From Bacillota bacterium (GTDB taxonomy: Bacteria > Bacillota > Clostridia > UBA1381 > UMGS1253), in the NCBI GenBank assembly GCA_022706785.1, contig JAKJBW010000017.1, positions 1 to 42,760 on the forward strand: DNA of 42,760 nt, in the 5' to 3' direction. Of this stretch, positions 2,235 to 4,961 are shown piece by piece. A program made the position numbers and the translations under genes. A model generated the notes under the pieces. It searched no databases and had not been told where the DNA came from. It saw only the letters and a list, made by a program, of their open reading frames with translations. The first letter of the stretch is position 1; each line of letters begins with the position of its first letter.

Positions 2235-2264
2235 TTGACAATACAAGCTTTGCCGGAGTATACT
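2235..2264 (+). promoter_or_regulatory. SigA-type promoter of the aroF-pheA leader
   Basis: A perfect -35 TTGACA (2235-2240) and a -10 TATACT (2259-2264) are separated by 18 nt. Transcription would start near 2271, giving an untranslated leader of about 435 nt before aroF. It is the only convincing promoter between the tocopherol-cyclase-like gene and aroF. Confidence 0.8.
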
Positions 2265-2292
2265 GTAACAAAGAATCATTTGCATTATTGCG

Positions 2293-2329
2293 AGGCTGTA
2301 TAGTTTGAAAATGCCTTTCAAACTAGCCT
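2293..2329 (+). promoter_or_regulatory. Hairpin at the 5' end of the aroF leader RNA
   Basis: TAGTTTGAAA (2301-2310) pairs perfectly with TTTCAAACTA (2316-2325) across a 5-nt loop. AGGC (2293-2296) and GCCT (2326-2329) extend it past a 4-nt bulge. It lies about 20-30 nt after the predicted transcription start. No T-rich tail follows, so it is not a terminator. It may stabilise the 5' end or form part of a larger regulatory fold. Confidence 0.5.
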
Positions 2330-2342
2330 TACGCGAAATTGA

Positions 2343-2475
2343 TTGCGCCGCCGATATTTTCGCCCAAGGGCGAAACGGCAATGCGCAAAAAATGCTCTTA
2401 TCATTCCCTGCCCTGCGGACAAGAGCATTTCAAATATTGTTTTGTGCCGACGCAGGGCGGCGAAATGGAGCATTT
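2343..2475 (+). promoter_or_regulatory. Structured leader RNA upstream of the Phe-rich ORF, with a possible pseudoknot
   Basis: Three pairings are visible. First, a long hairpin spans 2343-2388: TTGCGC/GCGCAA outside, GCCG/CGGC in the middle, TTTCGCCC/GGGCGAAA inside. Second, AAATGCTCTT (2390-2399) pairs perfectly with AAGAGCATTT (2421-2430). Third, GCCCTGCG in the loop of that hairpin (2410-2417) is complementary to CGCAGGGC (2451-2458), which would make an H-type pseudoknot. GAGCATTT occurs twice, at 2423-2430 and at 2468-2475. The second copy includes the Shine-Dalgarno GGAG of the leader ORF, so AAATGCTC (2390-2397) could pair with either. I know no riboswitch class that matches. The pairings are seen in the sequence; a regulatory role is inferred. 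Confidence 0.45.
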
Positions 2476-2477
2476 TT

Positions 2478-2597
2478 ATGGTCATGCAGAAAAGCACGTT
2501 ATGGAATTCTTTCTTCGGCTTTAGCTTTAGCTTTTATTTTAGCTACGGCTTTTTGCCGATGAAAAAATTTAATAACAGGCCTTGTCTGGGTGAATGA
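2478..2597 (+). CDS. Phe-rich leader peptide of the aroF-pheA attenuator
   Basis: A 39-codon ORF (ATG 2478-2480, TGA 2595-2597) with GGAG at 2467-2470, seven nt before the start. Residues 12-25 read FFGFSFSFYFSYGF, seven Phe and two Tyr in fourteen codons (2511-2552), and one more Phe follows at residue 31. This resembles the enteric pheL leader, where ribosomes stall on Phe codons when charged tRNA-Phe is scarce. It sits between a strong promoter and an intrinsic terminator directly ahead of DAHP synthase and prephenate dehydratase. The ribosome leaving the stop codon would cover 2576-2582, the segment able to block the terminator. The composition and position make chance unlikely. Function as an attenuator peptide is inferred. 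Confidence 0.8.
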   Translation: MVMQKSTLWNSFFGFSFSFYFSYGFLPMKKFNNRPCLGE

Positions 2598-2656
2598 ATA
2601 AACAGATAACGTAAATTTTAAGAAGAGGCCTGAATGTATCAGGCCTCTTTTATTTT
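2576..2656 (+). terminator. Attenuator: competing antiterminator and intrinsic terminator before aroF
   Basis: The terminator has a perfect 11-bp stem, AAGAGGCCTGA (2623-2633) with TCAGGCCTCTT (2639-2649), a 5-nt loop ATGTA and a T-rich tail to about 2656. It ends 50 nt before the aroF start codon, so it stands between the promoter and the gene. CAGGCCT (2576-2582), within the last codons of the Phe-rich ORF, is complementary to AGGCCTG (2626-2632) in the left arm of the stem. The two structures exclude each other. The Phe codons end at 2552, so a ribosome stalled there would leave 2576-2582 free. A ribosome at the stop codon would mask it and let the terminator form. Confidence 0.8.
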
Positions 2657-2705: not shown

Positions 2706-3755
2706 ATGGTTATTATATTCAAACCATCGGCAAGCAAACAAGAGATTTTAAAAGTCAAAACCTATGTGGAAAGCCTTGGCAACATTACCGCCCAGCCCAT
2801 AGAGGGCCAGAGCACCACCATCCTCGGTCTGGTCGGCGACACGGCTTCTATAGATGCGGAAGCCATTAACCTTTATGACTGTGTCGACCGCATTATGAAG
2901 GTGGCTGAAGCCTACAAAAAGGCAAACCGCAAGTTTCATCCCGACAATACGGTGATTGATGTGCGCGGACGCAAAATCGGCGGAAATGAAATCGCTATTA
3001 TCGCCGGTCCATGCTCGGTTGAGTCGCAGGAGCAGATAGACGAGGTGGCGGGCAAGGTGTGCGCTTATGGCGCAGGCCTGCTTCGCGGCGGGGCTTACAA
3101 GCCCCGGACCTCACCCTACGCGTTTCAGGGCATGGGGCCCCAAGGCCTGGAGCTTTTATATGCGGCGGGCAAAAAATACGATATGCCTGTTGTGAGCGAG
3201 ATCATGCACCCCAACCATCTCGACATATTCCTGGAAAAAGTGGATATCATTCAGGTGGGCGCACGCAATATGCAAAACTTTGAACTGCTCAAAGAACTCG
3301 GAAGAATCCAAAAACCCATCCTTCTAAAAAGAGGATTTGCGGCCACTATTGAAGAACTTTTAATGTCGGCGGAATATATTCTGGCGGAGGGCAATCCGAA
3401 CGTCATTTTGTGTGAGCGCGGCATACGCACCTTTGAGCCCTCGACCAGAAATTCGCTTGATTTAAGCAGTATCCCCATTATAAAGCGCAACTCCCACCTG
3501 CCGGTCATTGTCGACCCGTCCCACGCCACAGGGCTGTGGTGGATGGTTGAGCCTATGAGCAAGGCGGCGATCGCCGCCGGCGCCGACGGGCTGATCATAG
3601 AGGTACACAACAATCCCCAAATGGCTAAGTGCGACGGTCAGCAGTCCATCACGCCCGCCTCCTTCGAGGAGCTGTTAAAAAAGCTTTGCGTGATCGCACA
3701 GGTGGAAGGCCGCGAGATCAAAAATTGGGCGGCGCCCACCGGCACGCCGCAGTAA
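2706..3755 (+). CDS. aroF: 3-deoxy-7-phosphoheptulonate (DAHP) synthase
   Basis: First enzyme of the shikimate pathway, joining phosphoenolpyruvate and erythrose 4-phosphate. The start is ATG 2706, preceded by AAAGGGGG, giving 349 residues. An in-frame ATG at 2634 is rejected because it lies in the terminator loop and has no ribosome-binding site. Residues 1-70 form a ferredoxin-like N-terminal domain of the kind that carries feedback control in the Thermotoga-type (type I-beta) enzyme. The TIM barrel shows AGPCSVES, RGGAYKPRTSPYAFQG, RGFAATIEE, CERGIRTFEPSTRNSLDLS, VDPSHATG and EVHNNP, which hold the PEP, metal and phosphate ligands. It is followed 87 nt later by pheA, consistent with a Phe/Tyr-directed operon under the upstream attenuator. 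The length is normal for the family. Confidence 0.95.
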   Translation: MVIIFKPSASKQEILKVKTYVESLGNITAQPIEGQSTTILGLVGDTASIDAEAINLYDCVDRIMKVAEAYKKANRKFHPDNTVIDVRGRKIGGNEIAIIAGPCSVESQEQIDEVAGKVCAYGAGLLRGGAYKPRTSPYAFQGMGPQGLELLYAAGKKYDMPVVSEIMHPNHLDIFLEKVDIIQVGARNMQNFELLKELGRIQKPILLKRGFAATIEELLMSAEYILAEGNPNVILCERGIRTFEPSTRNSLDLSSIPIIKRNSHLPVIVDPSHATGLWWMVEPMSKAAIAAGADGLIIEVHNNPQMAKCDGQQSITPASFEELLKKLCVIAQVEGREIKNWAAPTGTPQ

Positions 3756-3842: not shown

Positions 3843-4961
3843 ATGAGCAGGAACATTGAGGATATCAGAAAGGACATCAACGCTTTAGACGCGCAAATCT
3901 TAAAAAGCTTTGAGCGACGGATGGAACTTGTACAGCAGGTAGCGGCGTATAAGGCCGAACGCGGCCTTGCTGTGCTGGATGAGGCAAGGGAGAGGGCGCT
4001 GCTTGAGCGTATCGGGAAAATGACCGAAAATGAAAAATATGCTCCCTTTGCACAGCGTCTTTTTACAGAGCTTATGCGTTATTCAAGGGAGCTTCAGCAG
4101 GCGCTTTTAACCGGCGATGCGCATAGTGTACAGCGTGTACGCCCCAAGGTAGTCTATCAGGGAATAGCGGGCTCATACGGTGAGGAGGCCGCATTGGGCT
4201 ACTTCGGCGAAGATGTGGACGCTCAAAGCGTTTCGGTATTTTCGGAGGTGTTCGACGCAGTGATGTCGGGCGGCGCCGATTTCGGGGTGCTGCCGATAGA
4301 GAATTCCTCTACGGGCGGCATAGGCGATGTGTATGATCTTTTCTGCTCATACCGCTGCTCCATTGCGGGCGAATATATCCTGCCCATACGCCATAACCTG
4401 CTGGGCTGCCCCGGTGCACGGCAAAACGATATTACCCAGGTATACTCCCATCCGCAGGGCTTTGAGCAGTGCAGCTCATTTCTAAAACATCATCCCGACT
4501 GGCAGCTGGTTCCCTACCACAACACCGCCATAAGCGCAAAATTTGTGGCCCAGCAGAGTGAACTTTGCATGGCTGCCATCGCCTCTCAGCGTGCCGCCAA
4601 GATCTACGGCCTTTCGGTACTTGCGCAAAACGTCAACAACAATTATAATAACTATACCCGCTTTGTCATCATCGCCAAAGAGGCCTCGGCGTGCGCCGAT
4701 GCCGACAAGGTATCGGTGATGTTCCAGCTGCCCCACAAGCAGGGTCAGCTGTATAAGATCATTTCACATTTTGCGGCACTGGGCGTAAACATGCTCAAGA
4801 TCGAGTCACGCCCCATCCCAAACCAAAGCTGGGAGTATAACTTTTATGTCGACTTTGAAGGCCGTATGTCGGAAGATGATACAGGCAGGCTGCTCGAAAA
4901 GCTAAAAGCGGACACCGATTCCTTTACCCTTTTGGGCAACTACAAGTCGGCAAGCAATTGA
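3843..4961 (+). CDS. pheA: Bifunctional chorismate mutase / prephenate dehydratase (P-protein)
   Basis: A 372-residue protein converting chorismate to prephenate and then to phenylpyruvate, the committed route to phenylalanine. Residues 1-90 are an AroQ-type all-helical chorismate mutase (IRKDINALDAQI, then RMELVQQVAAYK). Residues about 100-280 are the prephenate dehydratase, starting YQGIAGSYGEEAA and ending with the NNYTRF signature that carries the catalytic Thr-Arg-Phe. Residues about 285-365 are an ACT domain with GQLYKIISHFAALGVNM and the ESRP Phe-binding motif, so allosteric inhibition by Phe is expected. The start has GTGAGG 7 nt upstream. Together with aroF it explains a Phe-sensing leader. 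Confidence 0.95.
   Translation: MSRNIEDIRKDINALDAQILKSFERRMELVQQVAAYKAERGLAVLDEARERALLERIGKMTENEKYAPFAQRLFTELMRYSRELQQALLTGDAHSVQRVRPKVVYQGIAGSYGEEAALGYFGEDVDAQSVSVFSEVFDAVMSGGADFGVLPIENSSTGGIGDVYDLFCSYRCSIAGEYILPIRHNLLGCPGARQNDITQVYSHPQGFEQCSSFLKHHPDWQLVPYHNTAISAKFVAQQSELCMAAIASQRAAKIYGLSVLAQNVNNNYNNYTRFVIIAKEASACADADKVSVMFQLPHKQGQLYKIISHFAALGVNMLKIESRPIPNQSWEYNFYVDFEGRMSEDDTGRLLEKLKADTDSFTLLGNYKSASN

Follow-up and report, generated by a model that had tools for sequence, protein, structure and literature searches.

Organization of the aroF-pheA leader region

The window, by which we mean the whole 42,760-nt stretch of DNA that was analysed, carries the aroF and pheA genes preceded by a short, aromatic-rich reading frame and a set of RNA signals. 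The features of this region, all on the forward strand, are the following.

2235..2264 (+): sigma-A type promoter, TTGACA-18-TATACT, matching 11 of 12 consensus positions, for the leader/aroF-pheA transcript
2292..2295 (+): probable native Shine-Dalgarno sequence of the leader, GAGG, assigned from the sequence and from the joined flanks of the insert; 5 nt from the ATG at 2478 when the insert is left out
2301..2477 (+): copy of a dispersed structured element, inserted between the native Shine-Dalgarno sequence and the leader ATG; its 3' end supplies GGAG at 2467-2470, seven nt upstream of the ATG
2478..2597 (+): leader peptide ORF, 39 codons, rich in Phe and Tyr, MVMQKSTLWNSFFGFSFSFYFSYGFLPMKKFNNRPCLGE
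2511..2552 (+): run of control codons, FFGFSFSFYFSYGF, in which 7 of 14 are for Phe and 2 for Tyr
2576..2583 (+): antiterminator segment near the end of the leader ORF, 12 nt upstream of the stop codon; similarly placed, with matching base changes, in the relatives L004 and L005
2621..2651 (+): intrinsic terminator (attenuator)
2625..2632 (+): left arm of the terminator and partner of the antiterminator, from complementarity and folding
2706..3755 (+): aroF, DAHP synthase (NCBIfam NF006421, 482.6 bits; PF00793)
3843..4961 (+): pheA, bifunctional chorismate mutase / prephenate dehydratase (PF01817 and PF00800)

The seven Phe and two Tyr codons occupy residues 12-25 of the leader, and a density of at least 8 F/Y per 12 codons was reached only twice when the upstream region was shuffled 2000 times with its dinucleotides preserved. 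The same segment, 2511-2552, also pairs inside the leader ORF to make a leader (1:2-like) hairpin. The terminator consists of 11 perfect pairs (2623-2633/2639-2649; 13 if the A/U ends are counted) followed by a T tract, and its 3' end lies ~54 nt before the aroF ATG at 2706. CAGGCCT at 2576-2582 is the exact complement of AGGCCTG at 2626-2632; in two tests, complementarity between this region and the terminator arm exceeded that of same-spacer shuffles (p = 0.012 and 0.027), and the 206-nt leader as a whole folds far better than its shuffles (z = -5.6). The promoter, the nine aromatic codons, the perfect 11-bp terminator before aroF and the complementarity of 2576-2582 to 2626-2632 had all been named in a preliminary description of the locus, and each was found again. 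The hallmarks of the attenuator class, i.e., clustered cognate codons, a terminator before the first gene and an antiterminator within the expected footprint of a terminating ribosome, are present in this leader, whose translation is predicted from the sequence.

Leaders upstream of DAHP synthase genes in related bacteria

The comparison drew on 80 named AroF loci, loci from the window's own family (including the second copy in its own genome) and 65 further loci of the order. An F/Y-dense ORF (at least 6 of 12 codons) lies upstream of 53% of 81 aroF genes, as compared to 0.9% of 453 regions before other ORFs of the same loci, 3% of shuffles and 1% on the reverse strand. The enrichment is specific to the reading frame: 7.6 of 12 codons are F/Y in frame 0, as compared to 1.9 and 2.0 when the same segments are read in the alternative frames and 3.9 in shuffled segments. 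The comparison leans toward frame 0, since the tested segment was picked as the densest in frame. An intrinsic terminator comes after the leader in 58-59 loci, in most of them a strong one 15-50 nt past the leader stop codon. The spacer between the F/Y run and the terminator complements the left arm, or the arm plus the loop, in 37 of 59 loci at p<=0.05 against its own dinucleotide shuffles (median p 0.03), and spacers complement the terminator of their own locus better than do spacers taken from other loci. The initial form of this test, restricted to the left arm and to ungapped helices, gave a weak result (6 of 40 loci at p<0.05) because several clades pair with the arm plus the loop; the result became strong once the loop and bulges were allowed. 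The Fisher-combined p-values of 1e-33 and 4e-20 are too favourable, as they ignore the kinship of the loci. The complementary segment usually lies within ~40 nt of the leader stop codon and so within reach of a ribosome that terminates there.

Only two relatives belong to the same family as the window, and both have a leader, namely L004, whose AroF is 80% identical to that of the window and whose leader reads MKMDMLLLTNESKFFGFSFSYFYGYGFFGLEKLNSDLQI, and L005, with the leader MMTRNVQYFTFTYRYYFSNGYLCCHNRNA. Both retain the promoter at the equivalent position before the leader, an aromatic run (KFFGFSFSYFYGYGFF and YFTFTYRYYFSNGYL, respectively) and a terminator, and in both the leader ends in an antiterminator segment. 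Paired arms co-vary between the three loci, from CAGGCC/GGCCTG in the window to CAGACC/GGTCTG in L004 and AATGCTT/AAGCATT in L005. The alignment of upstream regions, by which the preliminary description had proposed to check its reading, therefore came out in favour of it: the aromatic codons are kept and the terminator and antiterminator arms change together. Its view of the locus as a ribosome-mediated attenuator finds support, at the level of sequence comparison, in the aromatic leaders, terminators and matched antiterminator arms of these relatives.

Almost every one of the closer AroF homologues in the order has such a leader, and the second, ~50% identical DAHP synthase is without it. 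The AroF tree places the AroF of L005 as the orthologue of the other DAHP synthase of the window's genome, which is leaderless. This second gene (L006; G000:C28:46781-47782, reverse strand) encodes a protein 56% identical to that of the window, and its nearest relative on the tree, the same-family L005, has a leader, so that control has seemingly moved between paralogues. A leader was sought before the gene on contig 28 and rejected, as the upstream region holds an apparent tRNA gene and a hairpin and no F/Y ORF.

A few further observations concern individual leaders. Those of L083 and L082 come from metagenome bins in records labelled Treponema or Lentisphaerae, which transfer or mis-binning may explain. 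In L032 (4851-4931), the Rfam Clostridiales-2 RNA (RF02937, listed there as an sRNA) lies directly before aroF and 3' of an F/Y-rich leader ORF, and may be a piece of the aroF leader in some clostridia. The leaders of L009, L010, L018, L020, L030, L032, L050 and L054, from Clostridium and its relatives, share residues other than Phe and Tyr (e.g., YFSAGYFFCKK), which could reflect either RNA pairing or a constraint on the nascent peptide.

A proposed model of attenuation

We consider it quite probable, judging from the sequences, that aroF-pheA is controlled by a leader-peptide transcription attenuator of the trp/phe type. The ORF with its aromatic codons, the terminator and the complementary segments are seen in the window and recur across clostridia; from them we infer a mechanism made up of ribosome stalling, masking of the antiterminator and kinetic antitermination in response to a physiological signal. 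Transcription would start near 2271 and a ribosome would translate the 39-codon leader. Were Phe-tRNA (and probably Tyr-tRNA as well) scarce, the ribosome would stall within 2511-2552, opening the leader's own hairpin and freeing 2576-2583 to pair with 2625-2632; this antiterminator pairing would block nucleation of the terminator and RNA polymerase would continue into aroF-pheA. With charged tRNA plentiful, the ribosome would reach the stop codon (2595-2597) and cover the RNA from 2577 onwards, leaving 2621-2651 to fold as the terminator.

Folding calculations bear on two points of this model. With the ribosome stalled at the Phe codons and the right arm of the terminator not yet made, the antiterminator at 2576-2582 forms with pair probabilities of 0.93-1.0; once the full terminator has been transcribed, it is the terminator that is favoured even with the ribosome stalled (-28.7 vs -16 kcal/mol), and antitermination must therefore be kinetic. 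The antiterminator is also predicted to form when no ribosome is present (P about 0.9), so that the state without translation is not clearly an "off" state.

An inserted element between the Shine-Dalgarno sequence and the leader start codon

When aligned with L004 and L005, the window is ~170 nt longer from promoter to leader, and neither relative has this stretch. The insert, a copy of a dispersed element of about 180 nt that occupies 2301-2477, places the promoter ~210 nt from the leader ORF of the window; in L004, the nearest relative, the promoter lies ~60 nt from the leader ATG. When the insert is taken out, the joined flanks restore a native order of GAGG-CTGTA-ATG. The GGAG that the preliminary description had assigned to the leader, seven nt upstream of the ORF, is indeed there (2467-2470), but it belongs to the inserted element, and the probable native Shine-Dalgarno sequence is the GAGG at 2292-2295. 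With the new Shine-Dalgarno sequence supplied by the insert, initiation of the leader would now depend on how the insert folds.

Three further copies, at 87-91% identity, reside in the same genome (C12:25026-25204, C12:25204-25336 and C22:34923-35100, all on the reverse strand); L167-L185 are among the other loci with the element. In a survey of 95 genomes from the order, BLAST matches to the element occur in 19 and matches to the covariance model R1 in 42, with up to 25 per genome, a figure that belongs in part to a different repeat, as matches starting TTATAGGAAA were excluded from the copy counts by eye only. These latter matches (in G062, G039, G040, G047 and G068) were rejected as copies, being a different repeat that is not found before start codons; it follows a T-rich stretch, measures ~150-180 nt and is seen at L232, L234, L236, L240-L247 and L253, with many copies in G062. 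Most of the other copies share the layout of the window, i.e., Shine-Dalgarno sequence, element, ATG. At least 4 nt of AAGGAGGTGA occur within 15 nt upstream of 39 of 46 copies (background 23%), and the start codon of an open frame follows within 6 nt in 45 of the 46 copies checked, the short leader ORF of the window included. Among 20 copies from other genomes, nearly all end in GGAATGGAGATTTTT or GGAATGGAGATTATT and meet the start codon of an unrelated gene 0-4 nt further on. A second subtype, which ends in GGCAGAAAGGCTATGGATATTTTT-ATG instead of GGCGGAATGGAGATTTTT-ATG, likewise lies between a Shine-Dalgarno sequence and a start codon (L217-L229 in G023, and L230, L233, L235, L248-L252 and L254-L256). 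On contig 12 of the window's own genome (L155/L157), one copy is nested within the spacer between the Shine-Dalgarno sequence and the ATG of another, as if the Shine-Dalgarno sequence of the first insert had been the target of the second.

The element is structured. In an alignment of 18 copies, two hairpins, one of them at the 5' end, and a long-range helix covary strongly; none of 500 shuffles reaches the observed score, which collapses when the structures are slid along the alignment. Two of its helices are mutually exclusive: 2390-2402/2418-2430, which is conserved with no pair changed on both sides, and 2388-2397/2468-2477, which has three covarying pairs and engages the element's own Shine-Dalgarno sequence. 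Searches of the window and the copies matched the element to no Rfam family, and no group I or group II intron family was among the Rfam hits. An origin as a phage feature was considered and set aside, there being no match among the phage records searched; the seven exact 17-mer matches to the element in viral contigs may be due to chance. The open-licence literature that was searched yielded no description of elements inserted between Shine-Dalgarno sequence and ATG, and the TAACTGA repeats of Beggiatoaceae, which also precede start codons, offer a loose analogy only. Sequence-specific insertion at GGAG-like sites, with retention only where the element's own Shine-Dalgarno sequence rescues the gene, would explain the distribution; RNA-level targeting or splicing would be alternatives.

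We tentatively suggest, as a possibility less likely than not, that the leader is translated only from a Shine-Dalgarno sequence brought by the insert, and that the insert belongs to a family of structured, mobile 5'-UTR elements, hitherto undescribed, which enter the spacers between Shine-Dalgarno sequences and start codons across the order. Their two exclusive, covarying folds, one of them hiding the new Shine-Dalgarno sequence, would make such elements a portable translational switch and, here, a second RNA layer over the Phe attenuator. It is also conceivable, if unlikely, that the attenuator is broken or constitutive in this genome, the insert sequestering the new Shine-Dalgarno sequence or altering the 5' UTR such that the leader is poorly translated and aroF-pheA escapes control. 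The insert does part GAGG (2292-2295) from the ATG at 2478, and in one of the two folds the GAG of the new Shine-Dalgarno sequence is taken up in a perfect helix between 2388-2397 and 2468-2477. Elsewhere, however, the element stands directly before the starts of many genes whose expression is required, such as ORFs that resemble pyrE, trpS and aspS by their N-terminal sequences, and evidently can therefore be compatible with translation, and no decay is seen in the leader frame, the codon run, the antiterminator or the terminator. Because the leader frame and all downstream parts are intact, attenuator function has probably been kept despite the insert, possibly with altered translation of the leader.

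The amino acid signal and the apparent exchange of leaders with T-boxes

Summed over all leaders, the runs contain 353 Phe, 249 Tyr and 16 Trp residues, and the fraction F/(F+Y) averages 0.70 where the operon has pheA but lacks tyrA vs 0.55 where tyrA is included (p = 0.005; 8 vs 37 loci). The run in the window (7 Phe, 2 Tyr) is in line with its position before aroF-pheA. The preliminary description had the leader sensing Phe; it does read Phe codons, but Phe together with Tyr and not Phe alone. We think it very improbable that the leader works by a TnaC-like arrest, in which the peptide inside the ribosome tunnel would respond to free phenylalanine or some other ligand and not to charged tRNA. 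Residues other than Phe and Tyr that many clostridial leaders have in common, such as FSAG(F/Y)FCCKK, might point to a constraint on the peptide itself, but they are absent or altered in the window (SYGFLPMKK) and in L004 (GYGFFGLEK), RNA pairing inside the leader can account for them, and the number of aromatic residues is kept while their positions vary freely.

T-boxes recognized by Rfam lie immediately before aroF in L007, L011, L033, L036, L059, L065 and L077. The specifier that follows GAA, read from sequences and alignments, is UUC (Phe) in six of the seven and UGG (Trp) in L033, and the combination of leader and terminator is found in none of them. In the window itself there is no match to RF00230 at the gathering score and none among the weak Rfam hits to 2180-2720, whereas the control loci L007, L036 and L065 do match; nor does any other riboswitch family of Rfam match the window at gathering scores. 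The window groups with L004 and L008, which likewise have leaders, in a clade of the AroF tree with support 98; this clade joins the Phe T-box loci with weaker support (81). The labels leader and T-box cluster on this tree (none of 500 shuffles came out as low), which gives no polarity for gain as opposed to loss of either. As the leader clade is set among relatives in which a T-box with a UUC specifier takes the leader's place, one sensor of the signal appears to have been exchanged for another. The preliminary description had noted that Bacillota usually control such operons by T-box or protein. Sister AroF genes do have Phe T-boxes, and attenuators before DAHP synthase genes are common in clostridia and not the oddity of one genome. 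That the window has an ordinary partial terminator, or is under protein or T-box control, with an F/Y run arisen by chance in a U-rich leader, is scarcely credible, for although T-boxes or proteins are frequent here in Bacillota and T makes up 53% of the run in these T-rich leaders, the F/Y enrichment is frame-specific and far above controls, no T-box or other Rfam family matches at gathering scores, and T-box loci are without the leader.

Relation to known systems and significance

Leader-peptide attenuation was long held to be proteobacterial and actinobacterial, and T-boxes were credited with the corresponding role in Bacillota. The enteric pheA and pheST leaders (RF01859, Phe_leader) likewise combine a Phe-rich peptide, an antiterminator and a terminator before genes of Phe biosynthesis; the window differs from them in having DAHP synthase as the first gene and Tyr codons mixed in. 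RF01859 is the top-scoring weak Rfam hit in the region (2505-2653; 20.4 bits, E 0.66), below its gathering score of 55 bits. The Phe T-box (RF00230) of sister clostridia serves the same gene, in the same slot and for the same amino acid signal (UUC specifier), but, unlike the window, it senses uncharged tRNA directly and has no translated leader.

The closest published case is uORFC-13-1 (Brewer et al. 2021, PMC8632094), in which an upstream ORF with Phe codons and an adjacent intrinsic terminator precede aroF in Acholeplasma and attenuation by the speed of Phe incorporation was proposed. That motif comprises 24 sequences, from Acholeplasma and unassigned environmental sources only, with "at least one" Phe codon. 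Compared by description, the two share a Phe-codon ORF and a terminator before aroF; the present case differs in belonging to Clostridia, in the 9 F/Y codons in 14 and the explicit antiterminator of the window, and in the operons concerned, which are of the aroF-pheA and aroF-tyrA-aroB types, and uORFC-13-1 was not among the Rfam hits. Leader-peptide attenuation in Bacillota is known from the ilv leader of S. aureus (PMC5794164) and, with T-box exchange between related genes, from the histidine leaders that precede hisZ/hisS* in bacilli (Naville and Gautheret 2010, PMC2965389); both differ from the window in amino acids and genes. Our search, which covered open-licence literature, found no report of clostridial aroF leaders.

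As ribosome-mediated attenuation in Bacillota and an aroF upstream ORF with Phe codons are already known, it is the wide distribution of the leaders and the exchange of sensors that are the points of interest. Leader-peptide attenuation appears to be a common clostridial control of the first enzyme of aromatic amino acid synthesis, and since leaders and Phe T-boxes have been exchanged within one AroF clade, the swapping of RNA sensors becomes directly testable. The inserted element may matter more than the attenuator and is the more novel lead. By landing between the Shine-Dalgarno sequence and the ATG of unrelated genes and bringing a Shine-Dalgarno sequence of its own, it would act either as a mobile element that mitigates its own damage or as a translational switch that can be carried from gene to gene.
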